Positions 5,781-46,900 of a DNA stretch of 64,000 nucleotides are shown here, piece by piece. The stretch is from Holothuria scabra (lineage: Eukaryota > Echinodermata > Holothuroidea > Aspidochirotida > Holothuriidae). Both the position numbers and the translations under genes were made by a program. The notes beneath the pieces were generated by a model. The model saw only the letters and a list, made by a program, of their open reading frames with translations, did not search any database and had not been told where the DNA came from. Positions within the stretch are counted from its first letter, which is position 1, and each line of letters opens with the position of its first letter. The DNA lies in assembly GCA_037179385.1 (NCBI GenBank), contig CM074179.1, positions 37,623,224 to 37,687,223 of the forward strand, given 5' to 3'.

Positions 5781-6592
5781 TTTTTTTCGGAAAAAAGACA
5801 ATTCCGCCAATTCCCAACTCAAACACTCCCGTAGGTCTCTGTCAAATTATAAAGTATAAACTTCAAACATATGGGAAGCCAAACTTTTTCCGCGGGAAAA
5901 TTTTCCAATATGGTCCGAGGGCCTTAATCTGCGTGATGATATTAGGTAACCCCAACAAAACTACAGATCACCCCTTCATTAAAACAACAAAATATGTTAT
6001 AAATGAACAACTTCTCTCTATGTTGATAAGAAGAATTGCGTGAAGGGTGCGATAAAGGTGCTTGTTGTCCATTTCGTAAAGCTTATTTCATCGTAAGACC
6101 AACAATACCGTAGTCTTCTGTTGTTACATACCAAACGGTCCTACGTGCCACACCGGCTTACAACTTTTCTAAAATTCTTAATTTATTTTTTTTTAAAACC
6201 TTCTTGGAATATTCGTAGTACGCAAAGAGCATTTAACCAAAGTATTTACCAACACGCAAACTTAACATGGATGATATGTTTCACTGCCATGGCACCCCCA
6301 CCCCCAACACATATCGCAAAAGATTACTTTCTCGTGAGATTAAAGAACAAATGATAGAACAGATAATGGTGGTTGTTTCAGCATTTTTTGCACCGTCTTT
6401 TTTAATATTAAATCAGTATCTTAGACAATAGAGAAACATGGCATGTTTTATTGAGAAAGAAAAAAATGAAACGTCTAATGGACGCACACACTATTGAGAG
6501 GAAAAGCACCTCTCTTGCAAGTTACGCATAATGTTTGTAGACCATATTGCCCTTTTGATAAGTTTAATTTTTAAACAAAAAATTAAACGCTA

Positions 6593-6841
6593 CACTCTTA
6601 AAAAGTTGGTTAAAAAAATCACCAACACTGGTCACGTATGTCAAATACCTGAAATTGGGTAAAGTTTCCCCAATATGTAGTGTTTATTTGGTTACCCCAC
6701 AGGCTGGTTGCCCAATTAAGTTGTAAAAACCTCTCTGATAACCCATTAATCAACAATTATTTATAAACTTTAACTAATTTCAGGTATTTGACATACGTGA
6801 CCAGTGTTGGTAAAGTTTTTTTAACCAACTTTTTTAGAGTG
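6593..6841. mobile_element. 249 bp MITE with long terminal inverted repeats, copy A
   Basis: The left end CACTCTTAAAAAGTTGG and the right end CCAACTTTTTTAGAGTG are inverted repeats. They extend inward for about 65 bases, including ACTGGTCACGTATGTCAAAT and its complement. The core is short and non-coding. It is a non-autonomous DNA transposon by structure. I could not settle the target-site duplication; the flanks themselves are partly palindromic (ACGCTA and GCACGCG). Confidence 0.85.
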
Positions 6842-7547
6842 CACGCGTATTGAACTGTTGAGTGTGAGTTTACAGATACGCATCAGCATTGCCTTTAAGC
6901 AAACATCATTCGTTATGATTTATTCACAGCTTATTGAATACGACTACTTCGCCAACAAAGTCCAACATGTTATAGGAGTGACGACAGATAATGACTACCA
7001 GAAAGAGGTAAGGTTAATATAATTAAGAATATAGACTTTTATTTTTAAGACACCGTAAGCGAGGAGTGACCATCATGTAACGTCTTGAATGAAGTAAGTT
7101 TTTCTACCAAAATACTTTCATAGCTTGATGGAATGACATGTCTAACAAATTGTGTGATATGCCCTTTTTTTTTAAAATAAGCCCATTTTTTGAAGGGAAT
7201 AAAAGTTACAAGAGCGTGGCTCTGTAAGCTTACAGTATAATCAACATTGACGTTACTGAGTTAAGCACACACACATTTTAAGGCTCTGTAGCGCTAATCC
7301 ATGGAATTTGTTCAGTTATAAATATGGAGAAGAAGATGCGGCTATGCCCATCAAAGAAGCTGTTATTGTGTTGGTGCTAACATACAAACTTGCATTATAA
7401 CCTCACACTGACAAGATTGTTCTACTAACTGTTCGAAATGGTACATGCACTGAAAACAATAGGAAGATGACATGAGGAAATAAAAAGTAAACTATGTTGT
7501 CAATTGTTATGAAGCGTCTGTAGTAAGTATTCCATATAATTAACATC

Positions 7548-11052: not shown

Positions 11053-12439
11053 AACAGCACTTCAAAATACCCTTGTATTAACTTTAAGCGTATTTGAAAA
11101 CCTTCTTCATATCGACAGGCCATGAAGTTAGAAAAAGCTATTCTGTGACGACATCCAGAATCCAGGAAATGCCTTGTTTCATACTCAAGAGGCGACATGG
11201 CATCGGGTTCAAATGCACCACCGACTGTCCTTTTTTGAAAGTATGGTCCCTCGGATACCGGTTCAACATGCAGGCGGCAAGCTCATTAATTTTAAGTCTC
11301 GCAGACACGTATGTACAGCGTTCACAGACGTTGTGTACACTGAGCTGATCGGTACTCTCGAGCGTGCGCTGTAGAAAGTAGGCGTGGCTTGTGCTACGAA
11401 GCTTGGCAACCAACGCTAATGAGTGTCAATAACGTGTTGCTAAGAAAGCAGACGATAGATTTTTGTTATCAGATAGCTGAAAAAATGACCAGTTTCAGCG
11501 CGGGAAATGCAAAAAATGATGATGTAAATGAATGAACATACATTATACATTTTTCACAACACTCGCCACTGAAAAGGAATGTCAACAACCTCCTCTATGA
11601 CACAAATTTCGTGGTATGACTACGACCTTCCGTGGACTTTTTAAGGTAATTTTTCTTATGGGCAATAGGTCACTGTTATTACGCAAGAGCTTCGACAAGG
11701 TGATATTTGGGTGAAATGTGGATTAACTAGAGTTTTCCCGAGTGTTTAGTTGTGTGTTATGTAATCAGTAAACAATAATCGGTTCATTATGAGTCTTTAC
11801 ACCTAGAGTCAATTTTTTTAGATCTTAATGGCCGTCGTACTGAGGCTTGTTTTGCCATGCATATTTGTGCATGCGTACACAAATGCAACCTATGGGGCAA
11901 TATTTGTCTCCCACTGAAAGTTTTACGATCGATATGAACAGAAAAAACTGTAAACCCAGGAACATGTTACAAGTGTTTGTTCTCAAAACATTCGGCTATA
12001 GGATAATTACTGCATGTTAGTGCTGTAGTCACACATACACTCCTGGTACTTGGTAATTCCAGCTAGCTAGCTCTCCGATCGATCTGGTTGTTCCTCTTAT
12101 CCAGTGTTTTGAATGAACGCATCACAACACAGAATCTAGGTCAGTGCACTGACTACACTGTCTACCCAGCACCCACCCATCTTTACCCCTCTAATCTAGC
12201 CCCACTTACGTAAAATACATCCTATACATTGTCTTAATTCCCCTACCCCCTTCCCCACCCACTCCCAAAGCTGTTGTCAGCCAAGGTACGGATCTATATT
12301 CCGAAGCTACGCGGAGAGGGGGAAAACTTAGAGAAGGCTGGAATGCAGGGCTACGTGGGTTAGATGTAATTTTTTTTTGCTCAAACTATGTATTCTTGCC
12401 TCAGAGATATATCTAATTAAGTGGAACGTACACCACCAC
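11053..12439. other. Spacer upstream of the RAG1-like fossil
   Basis: Overlapping frames on both strands at 11094-11413 (up to 91 codons) carry no recognisable domain. A C-rich tract at 12150-12265 and an inverted GCTAGCTAGC at 12061 are the only distinct features. I found no transposon terminus or RAG-type heptamer/nonamer pair that could be assigned. Confidence 0.5.
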
Positions 12440-12515
12440 TGGTAGGCAGAAAGCGAACAGAAAATTACAGAAATCGCAACCCCTCAGAAAGCCGGAAATA
12501 GCGCTATATCTAGTA
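12440..12515 (+). repeat. Dispersed GCCGGAAAT-type repeat, member 4
   Basis: ACAGAAAATTACAGAAATCG, then CAACCCCTCAGAAAGCCGGA and AATAGCGC. It is closest to member 1 in the left flank. The copy B counterpart is near 38655-38730. Confidence 0.45.
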
Positions 12516-12935
12516 GAAAGTTGTTATTGTTTCGATGTTGCAAAAAGGGTCCGCCTCAAAGAGCTAGGCTTCCATTAATATTCTCGATATATTATTATAT
12601 TATTTATTTATACATACTTCATAATATTTAACTTGATCTCGAAACTTTTGCATATTGGTTATTTTAACATTCTTAATTGCATAAATACTAGGGAAGGTGG
12701 CCGAGGTAAGGAAATCCCATCCTCTTGGACTTGTGCATGGCCTTGAAAAACTTCTGCCCCAAAGAAAATTCAGAATTATCATTGCCTTGATCATGCCTTT
12801 TGGTCCCCACCCCTGGCCCTGCTGATAATATTTCTCCCCATACAAATTTTGGCTATGGCCCAGGTTACCCTCATACTGGCACGATGCCTCTTTCATTAAC
12901 CGAGCCCAAAAATGGCAAGATGCTACAAAAGGTAA

Positions 12936-13614
12936 AGCCCCAAGCGCTGTAAAGACTATGCTGGTAAACTGAAACAGTTTTTCAACATAGATATTGAACT
13001 CGATGAGGATGATATACACGCCACCCTATTATGTCAGCCATGTTACTGTAGAATTTTGCACTGAAAAACAACCACAGCGAAGGAGTGGCTACCTCACCGT
13101 CGAGTCGGGCAGTGCACCACCTGCACATATTTTACCAACCAAAAGAAAGGTGGAAGACCCTCCAAGCCAGCTCATCCAGGGAAAAAAAAGGCTCAGTACA
13201 GTGATAAGGAGTACCCTCTGTCACTCAAATGTGGTCCAGATGCCGTGGTAATTAACACTGAAAACTACCACCTAGATATTCCCACGGAACTTACCTGTGT
13301 CTTGTGCCGTACATTGGTGGACAAAGCCCTATAACTACCCTGCAGTCATGTCATTTGCAAAATGTATATATTGCAATTTTCAGCCAAACCTCAGAAGAAA
13401 ACAAAACTCACATGTTCCTTTTGCGACAGCCATTTTTAAGGTTGCAGACGTTTCATCGCCAAAAGAATATTTTAGCACAGCATACAGTAATCAACTAGTC
13501 ACATGCAAGAAATGCAACCAGTCGATACCTATTTGTAATATACCACAACATGTCTTCTCTGGTGATGCCCTCAATCACTTCAAAAATGGAGGCAGATGGA
13601 ACACATCTTCTTAA
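12936..13614 (+). pseudogene. RAG1-like exon 1 found: zinc-dimerisation and RING region
   Basis: The frame starting at 12936 reads KQFFNIDIELDEDDIH, then CQPCY, then WLPH, CTTC and GGRPSK. This spacing matches the C-rich segment N-terminal to the RAG1 RING. The RING follows: ELTCVLCRTLVDKAL, LPCSHVICKMYIL, then KLTCSFCDSHF. A further zinc segment reads VTCKKCNQSIPICNIPQHVF. In-frame TGA at 13062 sits where vertebrate RAG1 has an Arg codon, and TAA at 13332 lies just before the RING CSH. Copy A has five Ts at 13433-13437 where copy B has four, which puts a TAA in frame in copy A only. The exon's 3' end and any exons upstream of 12936 are unclear. Confidence 0.78.
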
Positions 13615-14051
13615 AATGAAGTTTAAACAAGGTGATGGCTTGACTGCATCATTTAAAAAAAAGGACAGACAAGTGGTAGTGGTCAAACTTTTATGATAAT
13701 GTGTATTCATTTATGCCAGAAGTAACTATCTGGTACTGTTGAAGTTTTGAGTCATGATTCCAGTCCCGTCTACCTCTTATCAGTGTTTGCAATTTCGCAT
13801 TAAGCTACAAGATTGCAGGATTCCTGCAGCTGTTCTCAGAATCCTCTTGCCTCAATGAAATGCAAGGGGGGGGGGGGCATTACCCCTTTCTGTTGCTCAA
13901 ACAAAAAATTGAAATCAAGAAATTCCCCACAATTCCTTGGAAGATCCTGTTTCCCACAATTCCCTGGAAGATGCTGTCACATATTTTCAAGTTTTAATCC
14001 TTCTATAATTTGGCATATGGAACTACCAAATTCTTTGTAATTTCCTTTCAG

Positions 14052-14346
14052 CCTATTAATACAGTACATATTCCAAAGGCCAGAGTAGAAACAAAAAATG
14101 CGCAAATGCACAAAAAAGGGCACTGCCAGAAGAAGATCAAAAATTCTGGCCCTAACCCGGGATATAATAAGCAAAGGGAGCACCAGTCACCAACTCTCAG
14201 ATGAAGTCAAAGCACTTGACCAAGATGACCTCATTGCTACTCTGGCTACCTTAGACAAGGCGAAAGTCATGGTGCCTAAAGGGGACTTTTTGGGATTAAA
14301 GGCAGATATGAACTCCTCCTGGAAAAGAAACAGAGAATTTGAGAAG
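14052..14346 (+). pseudogene. RAG1-like exon 2: basic segment, NBD-like position
   Basis: An acceptor (pyrimidine tract then AG at 14050-14051) opens the exon and GTATGAG at 14347 closes it. The frame from 14098 encodes a basic stretch, KKGTARRRSKILALTRDI, followed by an acidic helical region. Its position after the RING, and the basic LxLTR pattern, match the nonamer-binding domain of RAG1. The sequence match is short, so this assignment is tentative. The frame changes by one base in the A run near 14093, and the downstream frame has a TAG at 14086-14088. Confidence 0.55.
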
Positions 14347-14597
14347 GTATGAGTCAAAACACACAAAGTAATAATCTGCTTTATGCTTAAGTTGTGAAAA
14401 AAAATACAGTATGATGCAAAGACAAAAAACAAAGCCCAGAGCTAGCATTGCCACTTTTTAAAAACACAGAATAGCTTACTCATATGATACTTATATTTGA
14501 AAAGGGTTTTGTATAATGGAAGACTGACACAAACTCCCAGTGGCATTCTCATTGTACAGTCAAATCACCTGATCATTTTCAAATACCTTTTATTTCC

Positions 14598-14821
14598 ATG
14601 TTTCTTTCCCCCGGATGGCTGAAACAGTATGGCATACTAGTTGAGAGCGAGAATAGCACGAGGAAGCAACAGCAGGACATAATTGATGACAACATGAAAG
14701 CTGAATGGCTGCCTTTTGTCCACGACGATGATGAAGGTGTTGCATCGTTAAAGAAGACCCCCAATGTTACTGTGAAGTCCTTACAACAGAAGATTGTCCA
14801 GCTGTTGGAAGGATGCAAAAA
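14598..14821 (+). pseudogene. RAG1-like exon 3: helical linker before the core
   Basis: Open frame containing WLKQYGILVESENSTRKQQQ and, later, SLQQKIVQLLEGCKK. The donor GTAATT starts at 14822 and splits an AA|A lysine codon. The next exon begins with A at 15317, so the phases agree. The acceptor is not canonical: the tract ends CCCCCGG with no AG. I recognise no domain. The position would correspond to the dimerisation/DNA-binding region between NBD and catalytic core. Confidence 0.55.
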
Positions 14822-15316
14822 GTAATTACAAATAGCTACATATAAACTATATTAATCACTAGATTAATTTTTTTCTCACAAAGGCAAGTATTCATACTGA
14901 TCTAGAGTATTTGCAAAAATAGTACTTCCTACAAAATAGTGATTTCACTCGGGCAAAAAAATGCGGAAAGTAGGTTTAGTACCACAAGTCCATGGTCGGT
15001 TGGGTACCAGATAATATAACTTCTATTACGCCAAGAGTTTGTTTTAAAGTCACAATGTGAAATTTTTCTTTGGACATTAAAATTTAAAATAGCACCAATG
15101 TATCTTACATGAGGGTATATGACAATGGTGGTTCTTAGGCATGTACTTGATTAATTTTGCAAAAAAGGTAACATTTTGGGTTTTTTTCTTCACCAATGCC
15201 ATTTACACATCGGATGTGGGTAGCAATTTCAGAACCGGATACTGAAATCTTTAGCAATTAAGATACCCTGGTCCCCGGAGCAAACACTACCACAAAAGCG
15301 ACTTACCTTCATTCAG

Positions 15317-15559
15317 ATTACAGCTGCTGAAAGGGCATGGTATCATTCCCGAGGATGATATCTGGATTAAGTTTGGGGGAGACAAAGGTGGCGGTCTCTT
15401 CAAACAAATGATCCAGGTTGCAAACAGGGATAATCCCAACGCAGAGAGAAATACCACCGTGGTTTGTGCATTTTCAGCTGATGACACCATGATAAATCTC
15501 AAGACAGGATTGCTACGACTACAACAACAGATCGCGGAACTTCAGACAGACCACTGGGG
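15317..15559 (+). pseudogene. RAG1-like exon 4: first catalytic block
   Basis: The exon follows ATTCAG and ends before a strong donor, GTAAGT, at 15560. It encodes DDIWIKFGGDKGGGLFKQ, then NTTVVCAFSADD and a helix LKTGLLRLQQQIAELQ. The Asp of GGDKGG occupies the place of the first catalytic Asp of RAG1 (Asp600 in mouse, in an ESCDGMGD context). Copy A reads through here. Copy B (41529-41770) lacks one G of the TTTGGGGG run and is shifted. Confidence 0.72.
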
Positions 15560-15687
15560 GTAAGTGAAATGAATGATGAAGGGGCATTGAAAAAAATTTC
15601 ATACACAAAATTGTCTTCAACCTTCAAATAAAATTTTCCTTGCGTGAAGTCAACCACCATTTTCTTTCTTTCTTTTTCCTACTTCAG

Positions 15688-15761
15688 ACCCCACAAGTTT
15701 AGAGTCTTTATCTTTGAAGACTATGAGTATTTATGCCGCATATATGGTATAACTGGAGCAA
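15688..15761 (+). pseudogene. RAG1-like exon 5: second catalytic block
   Basis: A short 74-base exon between a good acceptor (CTACTTCAG) and a weak donor (GTGGGA). It encodes PHKFRVFIFEDYEYL then CRIYGITGAS. This parallels the RAG1 segment around the second catalytic Asp, and the window's EDYEYL carries an Asp at the equivalent place. The split Ser codon A|GT joins exactly to the next exon at 15881. Confidence 0.72.
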
Positions 15762-15880
15762 GTGGGAAGGAATTATGAATGTCCTCAAGCTTCTGCACTG
15801 TAAAATGACAAAGCAAATTGTTAATTCATATCACTTGTAGTTGTTCCCTTCATTATTATCTTGATTTACTTTGTGCATAG

Positions 15881-16080
15881 GTCGACACTGCTGCTTGTTT
15901 TGCACATGCACTAAAGCTGAAATGGCCAAGAGTCTGGCAGAAGGACCATCAGCCCGAAAGGACTCTTGAGAGCCTCCATGAAGACTGGTTTAATTTTGCA
16001 AAAGCGGTGGAAAAACTTCCAAGGCAAAACAACACAACAATGTCATACACGAAGCTTTGTTTGACTTCCCCTTAAATCAG
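15881..16080 (+). pseudogene. RAG1-like exon 6: CxxC zinc half-site
   Basis: From the split Ser codon the frame reads RHCCLFCTCTKAEMAK, matching the CxxC that follows the second Asp block in RAG1. Near 15958 the frame shifts to RTLESLHEDWFNFAKAV. Near 16020 it shifts again to KAKQHNNVIHEALFDFPLNQ, which joins in phase to exon 7. Both shifts are present in copy B (42092-42291), so they predate or are shared by the two copies. Confidence 0.7.
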
Positions 16081-16196
16081 GTAAAAACTGCACACATGTT
16101 CACAGTTGTACTTCTGCTTGCTGTTTCTTCTCCAACTTGAGAATTATAATTATCATTTTCTCACTAAATTTAAAGTAATTTATGCTCTCTCCTCAG

Positions 16197-16514
16197 GTTT
16201 GCATTCCTGGGTTGCACATCAGTCTGGGGTTGTATCTCAAACATTTCAATTCATTTGAAGAGGCCTGCCACACACTAGATTTAAAACTGACACACAGGAT
16301 TCCACCACAGGCAACAGACCAAACCACATCTTTTGACAGCAGGATTCAGAAGGCAATAGATAACTACCACGAGGCATGCCGACTCACATCCCAAGCAGAA
16401 GAGTTGGATGAAGGTGCTTCCCTACTAATGGAGCATTTACAAACAGCAGATGAAACGAATGCACCCATTTATGAAGAAGCCATTCGCTCCCACATGTAGG
16501 AAAGAGAAAAACTT
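16197..16514 (+). pseudogene. RAG1-like exon 7: LHISLG block
   Basis: The acceptor CTCCTCAG and donor GTAAGT frame exactly 106 codons. It begins VCIPGLHISLGLYLKHF, resembling the RAG1 block around ALHCDIGNAAEFYKIF, and continues into a long helical, glutamate-rich insert. An in-frame TAG at 16497-16499 interrupts the HM-ER junction five codons before the exon end, in both copies. Confidence 0.72.
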
Positions 16515-16601
16515 GTAAGTCAGTTTTAAAATTGGTGTGAATACAGGCAGTTTTCCAAATAATTGAATACTCATCCTTTGCTTTTTCTGGTATTCTTTCA
16601 G

Positions 16602-16760
16602 CTGAAACTTACTGACAGCATCAAGAGCCAGATTGCCTTCAAGGTTGGTCAGTGTCCATTGTGCCAGCAATTGGAGGCTACCCTCCAAGAATTCAGGGTG
16701 CAGAGACAGGCTTACCATGGGCGCAGCTTTGTGGGTAATCACATCCATCGATGCTGCAAG
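16602..16760 (+). pseudogene. RAG1-like exon 8: AYHGRSFVGN block
   Basis: 53 codons between TTCTTTCAG and GTAACC, fully open in both copies. It contains VGQCPLCQQLEATLQEF and VQRQAYHGRSFVGNHIHRC. I recognise the QxQAYHGxSFxGN signature from uncharacterised invertebrate proteins of this family. It aligns by position with the RAG1 GNFARKLM region. Confidence 0.7.
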
Positions 16761-16881
16761 GTAACCTCACAGAAGCACAGCTTTCTGACTTCCATGCTTT
16801 TGACAGACATTTTCCATATCTGTAAAAGAATGAATAATATACTGATTGACCTGTTTTCTTTTTTGGTCTGTGGAAATATAG

Positions 16882-17066
16882 AAAGAAAACATCAAGCGCA
16901 TGATGACAGCAGTAGTTGAAAAAAACAAAGGAGCTTTGTCCACAATCGACCGAAGATGCCAAAATCATCACCCAAAAATATGAAACCCTCTTCCGCCTTT
17001 TTGGATGCTGCCATCGACTCTACAATAAATCTGCAGAAATGACTGATGAGGACATCAATGCACTAG
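16882..17066 (+). pseudogene. RAG1-like exon 9
   Basis: Follows AATATAG and ends before GTATTA. In copy B (43094-43277) the exon is open and encodes ENIKRMMTAVVEKTKELCP, then ITQKYETLFRLFGCCHRLYN. Copy A has one extra A in the GAAAAAAAC run near 16919-16925 and is shifted downstream of it. Phase 1 at the end (G|AA) agrees with the next exon. Confidence 0.68.
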
Positions 17067-17185
17067 GTATTAAACTCAAATTTTCCTGCAACTGTCTAAA
17101 TGCCTCTCTTTACACCAGAACTGAAGAACCTTTCAAAACTATAACTCTCATGTTATCTTTCATCTTATTATTCTTATTTCATCAG

Positions 17186-17437
17186 AATTAACCATACAGA
17201 GTCATCTGGCATACTTCAGGGCAAATTTCCCACAGGAATCAGTACAACCCAAAATGCATCTCCTGGAAGATCACACCATACATACGTAGGGTTAGGATTT
17301 TTGGGTGAACAGGGAGGAGAGTCAGTACATGCAAGGCTAAATACCATCAAAAGAGATGTCAGGGGGCTTAAAGATGAAATGGAGGTGTTAAAGAGTGTAA
17401 TTACAACTCACTGGGTTCAAACCCGGCCTGGAGCTAA
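17186..17437 (+). pseudogene. RAG1-like exon 10: HxxxxH and catalytic Glu block
   Basis: Begins LTIQSHLAYFRANFPQE, then QPKMHLLEDH, an HxxxxH with the spacing of the RAG1 zinc-binding His pair. After a damaged stretch with two TAGs and a shift (about 17285-17300) it resumes GLGFLGEQGGESVHARLN. The Glu in GEQGGES matches the position of the third catalytic residue of RAG1 (Glu962 in mouse, ASEGNES context). About eight residues expected between the two blocks are missing. Confidence 0.72.
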
Positions 17438-17673
17438 GTAAATTTTTAAAAGTGAGTTTCATTAGCACAAGAGCACCCTTTTTTTACTTTAGATATAATT
17501 ATAATCTTTTACTTATGCTACTTTAATTACTTAATAATGTTTGTAATAATAATATGATAATACCAATAATAATATTATAATAATTTGATGTGCAAAAATT
17601 AATGTGTATAACATCACTATGCATCAAAAAATGAAATTTTTAATTTTTTTATTTATTTTTTCCTTGCTTACAG

Positions 17674-17743
17674 GAAAATCTGTACACCCACAGCTCTCTT
17701 CAAAATCTTGAAAGAAGGCAACAATGAGTCAGGTGGCACCTGA
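17674..17743 (+). pseudogene. RAG1-like exon 11: C-terminus and stop
   Basis: Acceptor CTTGCTTACAG. Joined in phase to the previous exon (GCTAA|G), it reads GAKKICTPTALFKILKEG and stops at TGA 17741-17743. The donor side (AA|GTAAAT) also forms a TAA if unspliced, so an earlier stop at 17439-17441 is an alternative C-terminus. Confidence 0.5.
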
Positions 17744-18879
17744 TGATACCCCCACCTAAGAGTGGCTAATACAGGGACTTTAGCAGTCCTTGGGGGACCT
17801 TCAGCCACAAGAGCTGACAAGAGTTCACATTTAAGGATGGCAAACAGATGGGAATTGCTAGATTAATTACAGCCAAAAGATGCAAATCTATGCCCCAAAC
17901 CAAATTTAAAACATTAATCCCCTTAAAACAGCACACATACTTACCTTGACAGAATTTTTGATGAGTCGGCCATGCATTCTTTCACTTGCCATTTGCCAAG
18001 GATAGGGCGGTTTGAATCCCATTACATTGGTAGATGACTACCTTAGGCTTGCCCAATTTTCCCCTAAGAGTTATAACTTTAGAGATACATGCAAAAGATC
18101 CATGTTGATGTGGTTGACTAGGTACTGCAGGCCTAGAATGAGAATAAATGCCTTATGGGTGCCAAGGAACACAACCACATCAACCACAATCCGTTATTCT
18201 TGCATCCATTCTTCAAAATATACAATAAAATATAATTTAAGAAAATGCCTTTATCAGAAATTTCTTATTACAGTAGCAGTGTTCTCCGGTAGCCTGTGGA
18301 CAGGCGCCAGTGCCCGGTCTTAATGTTGACCCCACGAAATACCTTGCCCGCACAGAAAAAAATTGATTTCATTTTTTTTTTTTTTGGTGACATTGAATTG
18401 TTCCGTTCAATTTTAGCACCAATTACGCAGCACGATTTTGCATCTACCACCTTACATGTGCAAACATTTTCGAACGGGGGACGGTGGTTGGTGTCGTCTG
18501 CTATCAGAGACAAGCCCCGAACAAAATTTGGACTTGATGTGAAGAATACTGCATTGGTATTTAAAGAGCTGGCCTAATTCTGCCATTATACCACAGTCAG
18601 CTATCAACACAATTGCCACAAATGCTGCCAACTTTTTTCCAACCTTGGCCTCAATCAATTTTGATGCAGTATATAGACCTACTCAGGTTAATGATGCGAC
18701 GGTAGCGCAGGGTTAGACTATTAACTGACATTAGAGTATCATGTGTGACCAAGTGCCCACATAAATACACAGTTTTCCACAATAGGCATGATACGTACCC
18801 AATGTGGATGCCCGGGTTAAATAAACCACTAAAACAAAAAAACAAAACCAAAAAAAAAAAAAAATGGTGTTGTTTAGGC
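17744..18879. other. Spacer downstream of the RAG1-like fossil
   Basis: AATAAA at about 18227 could be a polyadenylation signal some 480 bases after the stop. The minus-strand frame 18452-18658 (68 codons) has a hydrophobic stretch but no recognised family. No kelch or PHD (RAG2-like) sequence was seen on either strand. Confidence 0.45.
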
Positions 18880-19390
18880 TTAGGCCTATATATTTGTGTA
18901 GTCTACTCCGCTAAAGAATGGGAAATTTTTTAAAGAAAGAATAGGTTTGGATGCCTGTGATGCTTCCTTATGGTTTAGGCCTAGGCCATTTTGACAAGTA
19001 CATGCTAAGGGTGCTTTCAACAAATCAATGTTCACCCATGATGCCCCCATGTCAATGAAAGCCCCCCTTCCAGATATAGGCTACAGTTGCTGCAAACTAG
19101 GCCTTGAACTTACTTTACAGGCCTACAGGAAGGCTCGAGCATGCATTGCTATGAGCCGCCACTCTAACTTTATTCTAACCGTGGCTGCTCCTCGAGAACC
19201 TGGTTAAGCTTTAGCTTTTACTAGGCTACGCTTACCAGGCAAAGACTGAAATTTAAGAGCATCATGATACATTATAGGCCTTAGCTAAGCTATATTCGGG
19301 CCGTAACTTCGTAAGTATGATCTAGGCCTAGGCATATGCTAGCTATATATATACTGTAGCCTGTAGGCCTAAGCTAAGGCGTACAACAAT
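18880..19390. repeat. Cluster of AGGCCTA palindromes, copy A
   Basis: AGGCCTA or a close variant recurs many times here: TTAGGCCTAGGCCATTTT near 18975, TCTAGGCCTAGGCATATG near 19321, and GTAGGCCTAAGC near 19365, with others in between. Density falls away on both sides. I see no tandem periodicity. The copy B counterpart is about 45095-45600. Confidence 0.5.
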
Positions 19391-21364
19391 GAACAAAACG
19401 AAGTGGATGGTACCTGCCCTGAAATACAACTAAAACCAACAATTTTTTACATGATATGGCTTAAAAAATTTAATTACTTGTCTAATTATCATCCGGTGAA
19501 GAGTTGTAATCCCTTCGTCCATTGTAAGGGCTGCTTACCTTGTAAATTTCTCGGCATTTCTTTCCGTACAGTGGTGCGGAATTTGTACACACGATGTGTA
19601 GCGAGTGTCCAAAATATCAATATTCCTCTTCTTTTTTAAAGGAAATAAAAAAAATGACACTGAAAACTTGGTGAATATTCATGATAAGTAAGTTTCAACG
19701 TGTAAAATTCAGTAGCTCTCCCTATGAGGAAAACTCTATGTGAGGCGTGGTATGTCTTGTTGTTACGGAGCGCTCTTAGGTAAACAAACCAAGATCGTAA
19801 TGGTAGTGCTTCATAAAACTGTTTTTTTTTTTTTGCAATAATTTGACTTCATATTTCCACAAAGACACCATCCATAACGATTTGAGCCTTATTCTTATAA
19901 TTTTAATAAATATTACGAAGTTCTCATGTTAAAAAACTTGAAAAAACTCCAAATTCAGTCACAAAGCGAACCCGGAAGACAAAAAAAAAAAAAACTGTAG
20001 CTCATTAATATTCATTAGGTATTTAACCTGCGCACGCGCAAGCGCTAAGTGGTGCATACAAACATACGTGCAGATGAGAAGACCATCTTGACCAATGACT
20101 AGAAGGTATGCATTGATCGGGTAATAGACTTGCTGAGCACATTTCAAGGTCACTGTGTACTTTAACATAAAATCCACAGCAGCCTGTAATTTCCTTAAAA
20201 GAAATAAAGCAACGGTTTTTCAGAATAATTCGATGTTCTTCGTCTCATTTTTGCTGAAACGTCATTATTCCGTGTGAAATAAGGGGCAGAACTTCACCGA
20301 TCTATGATTTGGTATCTTTTAGGCAGCGTGGAGCTGCAAAGGGAGATTTAATTCAATTATTTGTTCAGAACAACAACAGTTAAAAAAACATTACTGCCAA
20401 ATTGGTAAGGGAAAGTAGCAACCAAGGTATTAAATCGCTGAAACATTTATTACTCAAAAATATGCATTGTAAACTTTCCTTTTTTCAACCGCTGTCCAAT
20501 CATTACAAAAAAAAAAATCCGTTAAATTAACAACTATTAAGAACTTCCTACCGACTTTCGGTTCTAAAATATTCCTTTCAGAATTCAGGTAACAAAATTT
20601 GAATAAAAACACTAAATTTCAGTGTGGTATATTGAGGTAATAAATTGCAAAAGCATGGTATAGGCGGTTTAAACTATTTCAAGTTATTTTCAAATCATTC
20701 AGTCAAAAAAAATTGTATGAAGAAATATTGCCAGACCGCCCCCCCAAACAACAACCTCAAAATTAACGAATGTAAATTGGTCCCCTGAAACAAACATAGA
20801 AAACTTTAAAGTGACTTCCTCCTTGCAGACTTATATGGGATGAGATAATACCCCGAAAAAGGTGAAAAGTCGACTAGACGACGTGGAACTAAAACCTTTA
20901 CATTTTAATTCGAGCCAAATGAAAAGTTAAAGGGTTTTTTTTTTTTTTTGTCTTTTTCAATTGAAAAACTTGGGAATTTTTTTAATATTCTGCTGATGAA
21001 ACTTGTGATATCGACGGTTATAAAGGAAATCCGGATTTTATTTCGCAGGAATCTGCCTTTCTCTGAGAGGAAGGTCAAGCATATTGTCATGGCGATTGCC
21101 GATTGTTGTGTTTGCGTCATATAATCCTACGGATTTCTACTTCACGAAAAAAATTGGAAACCTATGTAACAAAAACCTTTATTAAGAATGCACTCGAAAA
21201 TTTCCTTTTTAAAGATTAACTTGACGTGAAAGTAAGAAATCAATATTTGGAGGAATTTATTAAATAACTAAAGACTACACAAGAAAAATCCTGTCAATAC
21301 TCGGAGGTGATTGCATTTAAAAGTTTCGTGTGGTCTGGCACCAAATGTGACTCACTGATCGCTG
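19391..21364. other. AT-rich spacer, no gene seen
   Basis: Homopolymer-rich non-coding DNA, including a poly-A at 19980-19994 and a T run at 20936-20950 whose length differs in copy B. The frame at 19403-19639 (78 codons) is not recognised. Confidence 0.5.
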
Positions 21365-28876: not shown

Positions 28877-28976
28877 NNNNNNNNNNNNNNNNNNNNNNNN
28901 NNNNNNNNNNNNNNNNNNNNNNNNNNNNNNNNNNNNNNNNNNNNNNNNNNNNNNNNNNNNNNNNNNNNNNNNNNNN
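28877..28976. other. Assembly gap of 100 Ns
   Basis: There are exactly 100 consecutive Ns, the conventional placeholder for a scaffold join of unknown length. The flanking bases are the last base of copy A and the first base of copy B, so the join connects two contigs that contain the same sequence. Confidence 0.99.
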
Positions 28977-32810: not shown

Positions 32811-33057
32811 CACTCTTAAAAAGTTGGTTAAAAAAATCACCAACACTGGTCACGTATGTCAAATACCTGAAATTGGGTAAAGTTTCCCCAATATGTAGTG
32901 TTTATTTGGTTACCCCACAGGCTGGTTGCCCAATTAAGTTGTAAAAACCTCTCTGATAACCCATTAATCAACAATTATTTATAAACTTTAACTAATTTCA
33001 GGTATTTGACATACGTGACCAGTGTTGGTAAAGTTTTTTTAACCAACTTTTAGAGTG
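32811..33057. mobile_element. 249 bp-type MITE, copy B
   Basis: Counterpart of 6593-6841, 247 bp long. Its right terminus has ACTTTTAGAGTG where copy A has ACTTTTTTAGAGTG, a homopolymer change inside the inverted repeat. Confidence 0.85.
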
Positions 33058-36890: not shown

Positions 36891-39150
36891 TGAACACGAG
36901 TTACAATGGATTCAGGTGAAGTATGTTTAATGCCGTTCCCTTGTACGTGTGCAACTGGTCATGCACGTAGATACATTACATGGTTACATAATTTAAACAT
37001 TTAACTAATGTGAATCAAATAGAGTTAAGGAATCGAGATGACTCGACTTGACTGGGATTTGCTAAAGACTCGACACGACTCTAGACTCGACACCTTGTGA
37101 CTCGGGGTGACTTGAACCTTAACAAGGACTCGAAGTGATTCGACTAGAGGTCAAGAAATACTGGAAATATCTCAACTCGACTTGAATGGCTGGATACTCG
37201 TCATGACTCGAGACTTGACGCCCTGTGACTCTAAGTGACTTAAGACTCGACATCAAGTGACTTGATAACAGCACTTCAAAATACCCTTGTATTAACTTTA
37301 AGCGTATTTGAAAACCTTCTTCATATCGACAGGCCATGAAGTTAGAAAAAGCTATTCTGTGACGACATCCAGAATCCAGGAAATGCCTTGTTTCATACTC
37401 AAGAGGCGACATGGCATCGGGTTCAAATGCACCACCGACTGTCCTTTTTTGAAAGTATGGTCCCTCGGATACCGGTTCAACATGCAGGCGGCAAGCTCAT
37501 TAATTTTAAGTCTCGCAGACACGTATGTACAGCGTTCACAGACGTTGTGTACACTGAGCTGATCGGTACTCTCGAGCGTGCGCTGTAGAAAGTAGGCGTG
37601 GCTTGTGCTACGAAGCTTGGCAACCAACGCTAATGAGTGTCAATAACGTGTTGCTAAGAAAGCAGACGATAGATTTTTGTTATCAGATAGCTGAAAAAAT
37701 GACCAGTTTCAGCGCGGGAAATGCAAAAAATGATGATGTAAATGAATGAACATACATTATACATTTTTCACAACACTCGCCACTGAAAAGGAATGTCAAC
37801 AACCTCCTCTATGACACAAATTTCGTGGTATGACTACGACCTTCCGTGGACTTTTTAAGGTAATTTTTCTTATGGGCAATAGGTCACTGTTATTACGCAA
37901 GAGCTTCGACAAGGTGATATTTGGGTGAAATGTGGATTAACTAGAGTTTTCCCGAGTGTTTAGTTGTGTGTTATGTAATCAGTAAACAATAATCGGTTCA
38001 TTATGAGTCTTTACACCTAGAGTCAATTTTTTTAGATCTTAATGGCCGTCGTACTGAGGCTTGTTTTGCCATGCATATTTGTGCATGCGTACACAAATGC
38101 AACCTATGGGGCAATATTTGTCTCCCACTGAAAGTTTTACGATCGATATGAACAGAAAAAACTGTAAACCCAGGAACATGTTACAAGTGTTTGTTCTCAA
38201 AACATTCGGCTATAGGATAATTACTGCATGTTAGTGCTGTAGTCACACATACACTCCTGGTACTTGGTAATTCCAGCTAGCTAGCTCTCCGATCGATCTG
38301 GTTGTTCCTCTTATCCAGTGTTTTGAATGAACGCATCACAACACAGAATCTAGGTCAGTGCACTGACTACACTGTCTACCCAGCACCCACCCATCTTTAC
38401 CCCTCTAATCTAGCCCCACTTACGTAAAATACATCCTATACATTGTCTTAATTCCCCTACCCCCTTCCCCACCCACTCCCAAAGCTGTTGTCAGCCAAGG
38501 TACGGATCTATATTCCGAAGCTACGCGGAGAGGGGGAAAACTTAGAGAAGGCTGGAATGCAGGGCTACGTGGGTTAGATGTAATTTTTTTTTGCTCAAAC
38601 TATGTATTCTTGCCTCAGAGATATATCTAATTAAGTGGAACGTACACCACCACTGGTAGGCAGAAAGCGAACAGAAAATTACAGAAATCGCAACCCCTCA
38701 GAAAGCCGGAAATAGCGCTATATCTAGTAGAAAGTTGTTATTGTTTCGATGTTGCAAAAAGGGTCCGCCTCAAAGAGCTAGGCTTCCATTAATATTCTCG
38801 ATATATTATTATATTATTTATTTATACATACTTCATAATATTTAACTTGATCTCGAAACTTTTGCATATTGGTTATTTTAACATTCTTAATTGCATAAAT
38901 ACTAGGGAAGGTGGCCGAGGTAAGGAAATCCCATCCTCTTGGACTTGTGCATGGCCTTGAAAAACTTCTGCCCCAAAGAAAATTCAGAATTATCATTGCC
39001 TTGATCATGCCTTTTGGTCCCCACCCCTGGCCCTGCTGATAATATTTCTCCCCCATACAAATTTTGGCTATGGCCCAGGTTACCCTCATACTGGCACGAT
39101 GCCTCTTTCATTAACCGAGCCCAAAAATGGCAAGATGCTACAAAAGGTAA

Positions 39151-42100
39151 AGCCCCAAGCGCTGTAAAGACTATGCTGGTAAACTGAAACAGTTTTTCAA
39201 CATAGATATTGAACTCGATGAGGATGATATACACGCCACCCTATTATGTCAGCCATGTTACTGTAGAATTTTGCACTGAAAAACAACCACAGCGAAGGAG
39301 TGGCTACCTCACCGTCGAGTCGGGCAGTGCACCACCTGCACATATTTTACCAACCAAAAGAAAGGTGGAAGACCCTCCAAGCCAGCTCATCCAGGGAAAA
39401 AAAAGGCTCAGTACAGTGATAAGGAGTACCCTCTGTCACTCAAATGTGGTCCAGATGCCGTGGTAATTAACACTGAAAACTACCACCTAGATATTCCCAC
39501 GGAACTTACCTGTGTCTTGTGCCGTACATTGGTGGACAAAGCCCTATAACTACCCTGCAGTCATGTCATTTGCAAAATGTATATATTGCAATTTTCAGCC
39601 AAACCTCAGAAGAAAACAAAACTCACATGTTCCTTTTGCGACAGCCATTTTAAGGTTGCAGACGTTTCATCGCCAAAAGAATATTTTAGCACAGCATACA
39701 GTAATCAACTAGTCACATGCAAGAAATGCAACCAGTCGATACCTATTTGTAATATACCACAACATGTCTTCTCTGGTGATGCCCTCAATCACTTCAAAAA
39801 TGGAGGCAGATGGAACACATCTTCTTAAAATGAAGTTTAAACAAGGTGATGGCTTGACTGCATCATTTAAAAAAAAGGACAGACAAGTGGTAGTGGTCAA
39901 ACTTTTATGATAATGTGTATTCATTTATGCCAGAAGTAACTATCTGGTACTGTTGAAGTTTTGAGTCATGATTCCAGTCCCGTCTACCTCTTATCAGTGT
40001 TTGCAATTTCGCATTAAGCTACAAGATTGCAGGATTCCTGCAGCTGTTCTCAGAATCCTCTTGCCTCAATGAAATGCAAGGGGGGGGGGGGCATTACCCC
40101 TTTCTGTTGCTCAAACAAAAAATTGAAATCAAGAAATTCCCCACAATTCCTTGGAAGATCCTGTTTCCCACAATTCCCTGGAAGATGCTGTCACATATTT
40201 TCAAGTTTTAATCCTTCTATAATTTGGCATATGGAACTACCAAATTCTTTGTAATTTCCTTTCAGCCTATTAATACAGTACATATTCCAAAGGCCAGAGT
40301 AGAAACAAAAAATGCGCAAATGCACAAAAAAGGGCACTGCCAGAAGAAGATCAAAAATTCTGGCCCTAACCCGGGATATAATAAGCAAAGGGAGCACCAG
40401 TCACCAACTCTCAGATGAAGTCAAAGCACTTGACCAAGATGACCTCATTGCTACTCTGGCTACCTTAGACAAGGCGAAAGTCATGGTGCCTAAAGGGGAC
40501 TTTTTGGGATTAAAGGCAGATATGAACTCCTCCTGGAAAAGAAACAGAGAATTTGAGAAGGTATGAGTCAAAACACACAAAGTAATAATCTGCTTTATGC
40601 TTAAGTTGTGAAAAAAATACAGTATGATGCAAAGACAAAAACAAAGCCCAGAGCTAGCATTGCCACTTTTTAAAAACACAGAATAGCTTACTCATATGAT
40701 ACTTATATTTGAAAAGGGTTTTGTATAATGGAAGACTGACACAAACTCCCAGTGGCATTCTCATTGTACAGTCAAATCACCTGATCATTTTCAAATACCT
40801 TTTATTTCCATGTTTCTTTCCCCCGGATGGCTGAAACAGTATGGCATACTAGTTGAGAGCGAGAATAGCACGAGGAAGCAACAGCAGGACATAATTGATG
40901 ACAACATGAAAGCTGAATGGCTGCCTTTTGTCCACGACGATGATGAAGGTGTTGCATCGTTAAAGAAGACCCCCAATGTTACTGTGAAGTCCTTACAACA
41001 GAAGATTGTCCAGCTGTTGGAAGGATGCAAAAAGTAATTACAAATAGCTACATATAAACTATATTAATCACTAGATTAATTTTTTTCTCACAAAGGCAAG
41101 TATTCATACTGATCTAGAGTATTTGCAAAAATAGTACTTCCTACAAAATAGTGATTTCACTCGGGCAAAAAAATGCGGAAAGTAGGTTTAGTACCACAAG
41201 TCCATGGTCGGTTGGGTACCAGATAATATAACTTCTATTACGCCAAGAGTTTGTTTTAAAGTCACAATGTGAAATTTTTCTTTGGACATTAAAATTTAAA
41301 ATAGCACCAATGTATCTTACATGAGGGTATATGACAATGGTGGTTCTTAGGCATGTACTTGATTAATTTTGCAAAAAAGGTAACATTTTGGGTTTTTTTC
41401 TTCACCAATGCCATTTACACATCGGATGTGGGTAGCAATTTCAGAACCGGATACTGAAATCTTTAGCAATTAAGATACCCTGGTCCCCGGAGCAAACACT
41501 ACCACAAAAGCGACTTACCTTCATTCAGATTACAGCTGCTGAAAGGGCATGGTATCATTCCCGAGGATGATATCTGGATTAAGTTTGGGGAGACAAAGGT
41601 GGCGGTCTCTTCAAACAAATGATCCAGGTTGCAAACAGGGATAATCCCAACGCAGAGAGAAATACCACCGTGGTTTGTGCATTTTCAGCTGATGACACCA
41701 TGATAAATCTCAAGACAGGATTGCTACGACTACAACAACAGATCGCGGAACTTCAGACAGACCACTGGGGGTAAGTGAAATGAATGATGAAGGGGCATTG
41801 AAAAAAATTTCATACACAAAATTGTCTTCAACCTTCAAATAAAATTTTCCTTGCGTGAAGTCAACCACCATTTTCTTTCTTTCTTTTTCCTACTTCAGAC
41901 CCCACAAGTTTAGAGTCTTTATCTTTGAAGACTATGAGTATTTATGCCGCATATATGGTATAACTGGAGCAAGTGGGAAGGAATTATGAATGTCCTCAAG
42001 CTTCTGCACTGTAAAATGACAAAGCAAATTGTTAATTCATATCACTTGTAGTTGTTCCCTTCATTATTATCTTGATTTACTTTGTGCATAGGTCGACACT

Positions 42101-43956
42101 GCTGCTTGTTTTGCACATGCACTAAAGCTGAAATGGCCAAGAGTCTGGCAGAAGGACCATCAGCCCGAAAGGACTCTTGAGAGCCTCCATGAAGACTGGT
42201 TTAATTTTGCAAAAGCGGTGGAAAAACTTCCAAGGCAAAACAACACAACAATGTCATACACGAAGCTTTGTTTGACTTCCCCTTAAATCAGGTAAAAACT
42301 GCACACATGTTCACAGTTGTACTTCTGCTTGCTGTTTCTTCTCCAACTTGAGAATTATAATTATCATTTTTCTCACTAAATTTAAAGTAATTTATGCTCT
42401 CTCCTCAGGTTTGCATTCCTGGGTTGCACATCAGTCTGGGGTTGTATCTCAAACATTTCAATTCATTTGAAGAGGCCTGCCACACACTAGATTTAAAACT
42501 GACACACAGGATTCCACCACAGGCAACAGACCAAACCACATCTTTTGACAGCAGGATTCAGAAGGCAATAGATAACTACCACGAGGCATGCCGACTCACA
42601 TCCCAAGCAGAAGAGTTGGATGAAGGTGCTTCCCTACTAATGGAGCATTTACAAACAGCAGATGAAACGAATGCACCCATTTATGAAGAAGCCATTCGCT
42701 CCCACATGTAGGAAAGAGAAAAACTTGTAAGTCAGTTTTAAAATTGGTGTGAATACAGGCAGTTTTCCAAATAATTGAATACTCATCCTTTGCTTTTTCT
42801 GGTATTCTTTCAGCTGAAACTTACTGACAGCATCAAGAGCCAGATTGCCTTCAAGGTTGGTCAGTGTCCATTGTGCCAGCAATTGGAGGCTACCCTCCAA
42901 GAATTCAGGGTGCAGAGACAGGCTTACCATGGGCGCAGCTTTGTGGGTAATCACATCCATCGATGCTGCAAGGTAACCTCACAGAAGCACAGCTTTCTGA
43001 CTTCCATGCTTTTGACAGACATTTTCCATATCTGTAAAAGAATGAATAATATACTGATTGACCTGTTTTCTTTTTTGGTCTGTGGAAATATAGAAAGAAA
43101 ACATCAAGCGCATGATGACAGCAGTAGTTGAAAAAACAAAGGAGCTTTGTCCACAATCGACCGAAGATGCCAAAATCATCACCCAAAAATATGAAACCCT
43201 CTTCCGCCTTTTTGGATGCTGCCATCGACTCTACAATAAATCTGCAGAAATGACTGATGAGGACATCAATGCACTAGGTATTAAACTCAAATTTTCCTGC
43301 AACTGTCTAAATGCCTCTCTTTACACCAGAACTGAAGAACCTTTCAAAACTATAACTCTCATGTTATCTTTCATCTTATTATTCTTATTTCATCAGAATT
43401 AACCATACAGAGTCATCTGGCATACTTCAGGGCAAATTTCCCACAGGAATCAGTACAACCCAAAATGCATCTCCTGGAAGATCACACCATACATACGTAG
43501 GGTTAGGATTTTTGGGTGAACAGGGAGGAGAGTCAGTACATGCAAGGCTAAATACCATCAAAAGAGATGTCAGGGGGCTTAAAGATGAAATGGAGGTGTT
43601 AAAGAGTGTAATTACAACTCACTGGGTTCAAACCCGGCCTGGAGCTAAGTAAATTTTTAAAAGTGAGTTTCATTAGCACAAGAGCACCCTTTTTTTACTT
43701 TAGATATAATTATAATCTTTTACTTATGCTACTTTAATTACTTAATAATGTTTGTAATAATAATATGATAATACCAATAATAATATTATAATAATTTGAT
43801 GTGCAAAAATTAATGTGTATAACATCACTATGCATCAAAAAAATGAAATTTTTAATTTTTTTTATTTATTTTTTCCTTGCTTACAGGAAAATCTGTACAC
43901 CCACAGCTCTCTTCAAAATCTTGAAAGAAGGCAACAATGAGTCAGGTGGCACCTGA
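39151..43956 (+). pseudogene. RAG1-like recombinase/transposase fossil, copy B
   Basis: Counterpart of 12936-17743. Exons: 39151-39828, 40266-40560, 40810-41033, 41529-41770, 41899-41972, 42092-42291, 42409-42726, 42814-42972, 43094-43277, 43397-43648 and 43887-43956. It keeps the same stops (TGA 39277, TAA 39547, TAG 42709). Exon 1 reads through the CDSHFKVADVSSPKEYF stretch and exon 9 is open, both unlike copy A. Exon 4 is shifted by one missing G, where copy A is open. The two records are best combined to reconstruct the ancestral exon structure. Confidence 0.8.
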
Positions 43957-46900
43957 TGATACCCCCACCTAAGAGTGGCTAATACAGGGACTTTAGCAGT
44001 CCTTGGGGGACCTTCAGCCACAAGAGCTGACAAGAGTTCACATTTAAGGATGGCAAACAGATGGGAATTGCTAGATTAATTACAGCCAAAAGATGCAAAT
44101 CTATGCCCCAAACCAAATTTAAAACATTAATCCCCTTAAAACAGCACACATACTTACCTTGACAGAATTTTTGATGAGTCGGCCATGCATTCTTTCACTT
44201 GCCATTTGCCAAGGATAGGGCGGTTTGAATCCCATTACATTGGTAGATGACTACCTTAGGCTTGCCCAATTTTCCCCTAAGAGTTATAACTTTAGAGATA
44301 CATGCAAAAGATCCATGTTGATGTGGTTGACTAGGTACTGCAGGCCTAGAATGAGAATAAATGCCTTATGGGTGCCAAGGAACACAACCACATCAACCAC
44401 AATCCGTTATTCTTGCATCCATTCTTCAAAATATACAATAAAATATAATTTAAGAAAATGCCTTTATCAGAAATTTCTTATTACAGTAGCAGTGTTCTCC
44501 GGTAGCCTGTGGACAGGCGCCAGTGCCCGGTCTTAATGTTGACCCCACGAAATACCTTGCCCGCACAGAAAAAATTGATTTCATTTTTTTTTTTTTGGTG
44601 ACATTGAATTGTTCCGTTCAATTTTAGCACCAATTACGCAGCACGATTTTGCATCTACCACCTTACATGTGCAAACATTTTCGAACGGGGGACGGTGGTT
44701 GGTGTCGTCTGCTATCAGAGACAAGCCCCGAACAAAATTTGGACTTGATGTGAAGAATACTGCATTGGTATTTAAAGAGCTGGCCTAATTCTGCCATTAT
44801 ACCACAGTCAGCTATCAACACAATTGCCACAAATGCTGCCAACTTTTTTCCAACCTTGGCCTCAATCAATTTTGATGCAGTATATAGACCTACTCAGGTT
44901 AATGATGCGACGGTAGCGCAGGGTTAGACTATTAACTGACATTAGAGTATCATGTGTGACCAAGTGCCCACATAAATACACAGTTTTCCACAATAGGCAT
45001 GATACGTACCCAATGTGGATGCCCGGGTTAAATAAACCACTAAAACAAAAAAACAAAACCAAAAAAAAAAAAAATGGTGTTGTTTAGGCTTAGGCCTATA
45101 TATTTGTGTAGTCTACTCCGCTAAAGAATGGGAAATTTTTTAAAGAAAGAATAGGTTTGGATGCCTGTGATGCTTCCTTATGGTTTAGGCCTAGGCCATT
45201 TTGACAAGTACATGCTAAGGGTGCTTTCAACAAATCAATGTTCACCCATGATGCCCCCATGTCAATGAAAGCCCCCCTTCCAGATATAGGCTACAGTTGC
45301 TGCAAACTAGGCCTTGAACTTACTTTACAGGCCTACAGGAAGGCTCGAGCATGCATTGCTATGAGCCGCCACTCTAACTTTATTCTAACCGTGGCTGCTC
45401 CTCGAGAACCTGGTTAAGCTTTAGCTTTTACTAGGCTACGCTTACCAGGCAAAGACTGAAATTTAAGAGCATCATGATACATTATAGGCCTTAGCTAAGC
45501 TATATTCGGGCCGTAACTTCGTAAGTATGATCTAGGCCTAGGCATATGCTAGCTATATATATACTGTAGCCTGTAGGCCTAAGCTAAGGCGTACAACAAT
45601 GAACAAAACGAAGTGGATGGTACCTGCCCTGAAATACAACTAAAACCAACAATTTTTTACATGATATGGCTTAAAAAATTTAATTACTTGTCTAATTATC
45701 ATCCGGTGAAGAGTTGTAATCCCTTCGTCCATTGTAAGGGCTGCTTACCTTGTAAATTTCTCGGCATTTCTTTCCGTACAGTGGTGCGGAATTTGTACAC
45801 ACGATGTGTAGCGAGTGTCCAAAATATCAATATTCCTCTTCTTTTTTAAAGGAAATAAAAAAAATGACACTGAAAACTTGGTGAATATTCATGATAAGTA
45901 AGTTTCAACGTGTAAAATTCAGTAGCTCTCCCTATGAGGAAAACTCTATGTGAGGCGTGGTATGTCTTGTTGTTACGGAGCGCTCTTAGGTAAACAAACC
46001 AAGATCGTAATGGTAGTGCTTCATAAAAACTGTTTTTTTTTTTTGCAATAATTTGACTTCATATTTCCACAAAGTCACCATCCATAACGATTTGAGCCTT
46101 ATTCTTATAATTTTAATAAATATTACGAAGTTCTCATGTAAAAAAACTTGAAAAAACTCCAAATTCAGTCACAAAGCGAACCCGGAAGACAAAAAAAAAA
46201 AAAACTGTAGCTCATTAATATTCATTAGGTATTTAACCTGCGCACGCGCAAGCGCTAAGTGGTGCATACAAACATACGTGCAGATGAGAAGACCATCTTG
46301 ACCAATGACTAGAAGGTATGCATTGATCGGGTAATAGACTTGCTGAGCACATTTCAAGGTCACTGTGTACTTTAACATAAAATCCACAGCAGCCTGTAAT
46401 TTCCTTAAAAGAAATAAAGCAACGGTTTTTCAGAATAATTCGATGTTCTTCGTCTCATTTTTGCTGAAACGTCATTATTCCGTGTGAAATAAGGGGCAGA
46501 ACTTCACCGATCTATGATTTGGTATCTTTTAGGCAGCGTGGAGCTGCAAAGGGAGATTTAATTCAATTATTTGTTCAGAACAACAACAGTTAAAAAAACA
46601 TTACTGCCAAATTGGTAAGGGAAAGTAGCAACCAAGGTATTAAATCGCTGAAACATTTATTACTCAAAAATATGCATTGTAAACTTTCCTTTTTTCAACC
46701 GCTGTCCAATCATTACAAAAAAAAAAATCCGTTAAATTAACAACTATTAAGAACTTCCTACCGACTTTCGGTTCTAAAATATTCCTTTCAGAATTCAGGT
46801 AACAAAATTTGAATAAAAACACTAAATTTCAGTGTGGTATATTGAGGTAATAAATTGCAAAAGCATGGTATAGGCGGTTTAAACTATTTCAAGTTATTTT

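Follow-up and report, generated by a model that had tools for sequence, protein, structure and literature searches.

Does a broken gene whose exons spell RAG1-like motifs, found in a 64,000-nucleotide stretch of the Holothuria scabra genome (contig CM074179.1, positions 37,623,224 to 37,687,223; the whole stretch is termed the window below), represent a new relative of RAG1? A first-pass annotation had read the locus as a RAG1-like gene fossil carrying both the N-terminal zinc region of RAG1 and its catalytic core, the latter characterized by two Asp and one Glu (DDE). We found that the head of the gene is of the RAG1 type, while the core matches another family. The locus is in all probability (roughly 0.94) an inactivated copy of an autonomous Chapaev-group DNA transposon and, judged by its sequence, it is not a new RAG1 relative.

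The hallmarks described for Chapaev elements are a target site duplication (TSD) of 3-4 bp, 5'-CAC/GTG-3' ends and the motifs C(2)C, LH and H(4)H (PMC4079192). In agreement with this, the locus was found to have CAC...GTG ends, matching 4-bp flanks, a core of the Pfam family DUF1280 with C(2)C, LH and H(4)H, and a zinc domain termed Chapa followed by a RING finger.

Head and core of the transposase

The N-terminal part of the window copy, joined to 225 amino acids, matched RAG1 (V(D)J recombination-activating protein 1, PDB entry 6oem, whose RAG1 chain is presumably the mouse protein) with an expectation value (E) of 6.2e-5 in a phmmer search of the PDB. We also built a head profile (A3) from open reading frames (ORFs) of five relatives in the same genome, L026, L031, L041, L029, and L037, omitting L032, whose ORF is without the RING part, and L039, which has no such domain. 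This profile matched full-length RAG1 over residues 101-380 in one collinear stretch (E 1.4e-16), and RAG1 was its top match, ahead of TRAF6 and other RING proteins. The proposed RAG1-type N-terminus, consisting of a zinc domain, a RING and the next zinc finger, was thereby supported.

The zinc domain is Chapa, or RAG1_imp_bd (PF12560). When six head ORFs were scanned with Pfam, RAG1_imp_bd scored above its cut-off in L032, L029, and L026 and below it in L031 and L041, with no match in L037. The RING model scored above cut-off in L031 and L037 and below it in L026, L041, and L029, with no match in L032. Chapa followed by RING is present in the relatives according to Pfam, alignment and profile, and in the window copy according to phmmer.

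For the core the outcome was different. The joined core of the window copy matched DUF1280 with E 7.8e-13 (49 bits vs. a cut-off of 25) over residues 14-226 of 652, i.e., up to the exon of the first Asp, and DUF1280 has been equated with Chapaev transposases (PMC3985635). We aligned seven cores (A2), those of the window copy, L029, L032, L026, L031, L037, and L039, all but L039 joined from exon matches; L041, a close copy, was omitted, as were L033, in which three exons were unmatched, and L036 and L040, whose matches were short. Residues D166, D235, C254, C257, H323, H534, H539, and E548 (numbered after the first row of A2) were invariant in all seven. Between D, D and E the window copy has CLFC, GLHISLG, and HLLEDH as its C(2)C, LH, and H(4)H motifs. 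The motif pattern common to a wider group including Transib and RAG1 suggests that the invariant D, D and E would be the catalytic residues; C(2)C and H(3-4)H motifs are reported as common to EnSpm, Mirage, Chapaev, Transib, and RAG1 (PMC12730594).

Synonymous differences between families were near saturation (ps 0.77-0.81 in five pairs), while nonsynonymous differences were far fewer (pn 0.25-0.34), and the protein sequence has therefore been under constraint between families. Within families the Ka/Ks ratio was 0.55 and 0.62 for the pairs window-L041 and L026-L033, as expected for partly decayed copies. No in-frame stop was found in the joined core stretches of L026, L031, L032, and L037, considering the core stretches only.

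The alternative that deserves most attention is the one first proposed, a gene or transposon of the RAG1/Transib/ProtoRAG lineage. Its attraction is evident from the head, which matches RAG1 101-380, and from the residues D, D, CxxC, HxxxxH, and E, which stand in RAG1 order. The literature also offers it some room, since RAG1 and DUF1280 have been placed in one clade II of the RNase H-like superfamily (PMC3985635), and in the legend to Figure 2 of PMC4411706 Chapaev is treated as one clade within the Transib superfamily. The core, however, speaks against it. It matched DUF1280, and PF12940, the RAG1 family, was not among its Pfam matches at E up to 10. RAG1 and Transib structures in the PDB were unmatched at E up to 10, whether the single joined sequence or the seven-row profile was used, and the flanking repeat is 4 bp compared to 5 bp for Transib (PMC8355894). 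A PF12940 search of the H. scabra genome gave no match, though none of the 14 control genomes gave one either. The profiles thus largely assign the core to a different transposase group, DUF1280/Chapaev, with the caveat that PMC4411706 includes this group, as a distant clade, in the Transib superfamily. We consider a RAG1/Transib/ProtoRAG core very unlikely, and that part of the first-pass annotation is not upheld. The top PDB matches of the core were HIV gp41 (E 0.22) and M protein (E 3.2), which we took to be chance.

Ends, flanks and dispersed copies

The Chapaev-type element was found to span positions 11306..20070 of the window on the + strand (8765 bp) and to be complete but degenerate. 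Its ends, CACGTATGT...ACATACGTG, are of the CAC...GTG type and form perfect 9-bp terminal inverted repeats (TIRs) at 11306..11314 (+ strand, from end inspection) and 20062..20070 (- strand, ACATACGTG as read on the + strand, from end comparison). CAGA borders the element on both sides, giving putative TSDs at 11302..11305 and 20071..20074 by flank comparison. A 5-bp duplication was ruled out, as the left ...GCAGA and the right CAGAT... do not match over five positions. The element was delimited by its ends and flanking 4-mers, the left edge being set by comparison with copy L041 on another chromosome. A TIR search that scored 24-bp CA...TG pairs around the gene returned nothing above five shuffled controls, the actual repeat, at 9 bp, being too short for it; the ends were obtained by comparing copies and not by TIR scoring. 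The interval originally given for the gene, 12936..17743, holds the motifs and is too narrow, since the element extends on both sides and a coding scrap of the Chapa domain, NRAQKWQDATKGKAP, lies at 12898..12942 (+ strand; frame translation read against L041) in a frame that differs from the rest.

Relatives were sought with a profile in the genome itself (1.19 Gb in 31 contigs). This gave 35 DUF1280 matches from 44 scored candidates, two of them in the window. We extracted 10-kb stretches for 20 of the 35 matches and lengthened seven of these for the end scan. Eight of the 20 stretches had paired ends of the CACGTATG type together with matching 4-bp flanks. The ends were exact in L024 (CAGA), L041 (CAGA), L029 (ACTA), and L032 (AGCC). 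A looser scan of 10 stretches, allowing up to two mismatches in the right end and requiring a matching 4-mer, added L026 (CATC), L027 (ACTA), L028 (ATCA), and L033 (AGTA), all four with one common right-end sequence, and found no paired ends in L030, L031, L034, L035, and L037. Besides CAGA there were five distinct flanking 4-mers, ACTA, AGCC, CATC, ATCA, and AGTA. Some copies on different chromosomes were more than 99% identical in their best block; L026, L027, and L028, located on three chromosomes, were more than 99% identical in their best blocks and each had its own 4-bp flank. Relatives were also sought by pattern in a set of genome contigs, where none of 20 pattern stretches was confirmed, and in viral contigs, where no pattern match was found.

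L024 (G000:C1:38218300-38228299) is a third copy of the window segment, located approximately 0.56 Mb away and 97.4% identical within the element. Its left flank is identical to that of the window at 98 of 100 bases, and it is therefore a segmental copy and not an independent insertion. The window itself contains a 26-kb repeat in tandem, with units at 2862-28876 and 28977-54937 (aligned blocks 98.7, 94.7, and 97.5% identical) separated by a run of 100 N at 28877-28976. The second unit carries another assembly copy of the element at 37520..46280 (+ strand) with the same CAGA flanks, 99.93% identical over aligned columns. The two copies may be one locus assembled twice, and a haplotype placed twice by the assembler explains the repeat at least as well as a tandem duplication. 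The plan to correct one copy by the other is therefore of little use, as two such sequences across a gap of 100 N carry little independent information.

These data also bear on two further explanations. The locus could be an element like N-RAG-TP, a transposon with a RAG1 N-terminus-like protein that is mobilized in trans, lying next to an unrelated gene. Such an origin would account for the RAG1-like N-terminal domain, yet head and core exons keep their order in several dispersed families, partly within one pair of ends, and N-RAG-TP is described as made entirely of RAG1 N-terminal-like sequence (PMC8355894), whereas core exons are conserved downstream here; we regard it as extremely improbable. 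A domesticated host gene that later decayed would fit the many introns and the broken frame, and is scarcely credible for a locus that ends in terminal repeats, is bordered by the same 4 bp on either side and has copies scattered over several chromosomes.

Some observations do weigh against an inactivated Chapaev-group transposon. The two collinear RAG1 stretches in the N-terminal part of the window copy were individually non-significant (i-Evalues 0.25 and 0.37), and RAG1_imp_bd remained below cut-off in the window copy alone (17.5 vs. 23.3 bits). Nor are the C(2)C and H(3-4)H motifs specific to Chapaev (PMC12730594), and at 9 bp the terminal repeats are short. Twelve of the 20 stretches lacked paired ends in the first scan; two of them, L039 and L043, later gave different CAC...GTG ends, and the remaining ones may end before the terminus or be decayed. 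Finally, L041 (with L044) is located on another chromosome and has the same CAGA as the window although the surrounding sequences are unrelated (identity at 24 of 100 left-flank positions). Either this agreement arose by chance, at odds of about 1 in 256, or certain target sites are preferred, and we have no explanation beyond these.

Exons of the broken gene

All 13 motif strings located in translation lie on the + strand and in the order proposed; WLPH and LALTR were also visible in frame translation. The motifs do not result from chance, because their exons could be aligned to further elements in the H. scabra genome. The exon with GGDKGG aligned to L026 at 62% (E 9e-32) and that with GEQGGES at 82% (E 5e-25). 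We compared the ORFs of the window element with those of L029, L032, L026, L031, L037, and L039 at E up to 1e-4. Head and core exons between 12936 and 17438 were matched among these six elements, L039 being matched in two core exons only.

The head begins with the Chapa domain and the start of the RING at 12936..13331, an interval interrupted by a stop that contains CQPCY (13032-13046) and CTTC (13113-13124); it is included in the phmmer match to RAG1, and homologous exons were found in five of the six other elements. The head's first zinc pair, which reads LCRxCG in the relatives, was not seen in the translated frames of the window copy (ORFs of at least 25 amino acids). The RING finger at 13296..13424, also interrupted by a stop, comprises CVLCR (13296-13310), CSHVICK (13341-13361), and CSFC (13413-13424), and was identified by phmmer of the joined N-terminal part and by RING profiles in the relatives. 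Past a frameshift, the next zinc finger is located at 13438..13611 with CKKC at 13504-13515, based on translation, phmmer and weak matches to L031 and L037.

A basic segment exon (ILALTR...) at 14089..14349, where the DUF1280 match begins, was delimited by Pfam, exon matches and a GT donor. It is followed by a core exon at 14616..14822, found by exon matches, and by the exon of the first Asp at 15318..15560 (GGDKGG at 15375-15392), for which Pfam, exon matches and the core alignment agree. Exon matches and the core alignment also define the exon of the second Asp at 15686..15769 (FEDYE at 15713-15727; FGDYE in the other aligned cores), the C(2)C exon at 15880..16083, in which the frame is broken (CLFC at 15892-15903), the LH exon at 16194..16514 with a stop at 16497 (GLHISLG at 16209-16229), and an exon at 16599..16763, YHGRSFVGNHIHRCC, that includes YHGRSFVGNHIH at 16713-16748. 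The core exon at 16881..17068 has an internal frame shift and was recognized by translation and exon matches. The exon at 17186..17438, supported by exon matches and the core alignment, contains the H(4)H motif HLLEDH (17257-17274) and GEQGGES with the proposed catalytic Glu (17304-17324), and is broken near 17287. A possible C-terminal exon at 17675..17743 was suggested by translation only and had no match to other families. All these exons are on the + strand.

Among the 10 intron borders printed, eight had a GT donor and eight an AG acceptor at or adjoining the border; the first border was poorly placed and the fifth was without a donor GT. The suggestion of an intron-containing gene that joins both halves was correct insofar as a RAG1-type N-terminus and a DDE-type core are found in one gene. 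Several in-frame stops and frameshifts break the reading frame, and the window copy can therefore not make the full protein. The regions 17440-20070 and 11306-12935 had no ORF matches to the six other elements, and no second conserved gene was therefore seen. For a RAG2-like partner, no second gene was found among the ORFs shared with the six elements; RAG2 profiles were not searched.

In less damaged relatives a single multi-exon gene codes for a transposase with the Chapa zinc domain, the RING and a further zinc finger ahead of the DUF1280 core. The core is predicted to be an RNase-H-like DDE domain with D, D, C(2)C, LH, H(4)H, and E, and would cut at the CAC...GTG ends. The cut ends would then be joined to target DNA that is itself cut with a 4-bp stagger, so that repair would leave the 4-bp duplications. 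The RAG1 head functions in dimerization and DNA contact, and has in addition been described to have ubiquitin-ligase activity (PMC4411706). As in RAG1, the RAG1-like head of the transposase most likely acts in protein-protein contacts, in contact with DNA or in self-ubiquitylation.

Known systems and a sister lineage

In two subgroups of Chapaev, the Chapa domain, which takes its name from these transposons, is described as preceding RING, similarly to what is seen in RAG1 (Kapitonov and Koonin, 2015, PMC4411706). The RING-bearing subgroups trace to Kapitonov and Jurka (2007), as cited in PMC4411706, where an ancient fusion of Chapa, RING and core was inferred. The H. scabra element shares with these published Chapaevs the domain order, the CAC...GTG ends, the short TSD, the DUF1280 core, and C(2)C, LH, and H(4)H. 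It differs in its host genome and in that the window copy is inactivated, the likeness being judged from described features and not from sequence identity. As the published hallmarks and the Chapa/RING arrangement are both present, the locus is a further, degenerate Chapaev of an already described architecture. The idea of an undescribed relative may hold for the individual element and does not hold for the combination of Chapa, RING, and DDE core, which was reported in 2015 (PMC4411706). For the same reason the locus leaves the picture of RAG1 origin unchanged, contrary to the suggestion that it could bear on how RAG1 acquired its N-terminus.

Compared to vertebrate RAG1, the element has the same zinc domain, RING and next zinc finger, collinear with 101-380 of 6oem, and the same order of D, D, CxxC, HxxxxH, and E, whereas its core is unmatched by sequence or profile, no second conserved gene was seen and the flanks are 4 bp. 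Transib, TransibSU, and ProtoRAG similarly have a DDE core with C(2)C and H motifs and ends of the 5'-CA..TG-3' type (PMC12730594), but differ in core family and TSD length, and TransibSU is reported without RING (PMC4411706). N-RAG-TP of Aplysia also has a RAG1-like N-terminal domain in a transposon, while the window element has a catalytic core in the same gene. What is added here is a measured link of the head to RAG1 101-380 (profile E 1.4e-16), together with well-bounded elements from a single genome, some of them recent copies, as material for asking which function the RAG1 N-terminus had before V(D)J recombination.

A second Chapaev-type lineage was observed in the same genome at L039:3376-5163 (- strand) and also in L042 and L043. 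The element is approximately 12.35 kb in L039, and its ends, CACGGCTTTTACAG, are of the CAC...GTG type with 4-bp flanks TTTA (L039) and TGTA (L043). The L039 core is contained in one ORF of 596 amino acids with DUF1280, and between its LH motif and YHS...H lies a PHD-like finger, for which the Pfam PHD match (E 7e-4) is below cut-off. Neither Chapa nor RING was matched by Pfam in the four L039 ORFs scanned. It is a tentative idea, rather doubtful at present, that the genome has very recently mobile Chapa-RING-DDE Chapaev families alongside a sister Chapaev-type lineage with a PHD-like finger in its core. If so, the role of the RAG1-like head would become testable in a present-day transposase, and Chapaev-type transposases might have sampled both zinc modules of the RAG pair, RING (RAG1) and PHD (RAG2).

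Outside the element, the window has a near-palindromic short repeat at 6587-6848 with a copy near 32805-33064. It resembles a miniature inverted-repeat transposable element, encloses CACGTATG...CATACGTG, and was 77% identical by BLAST to the reverse strand of its other copy.

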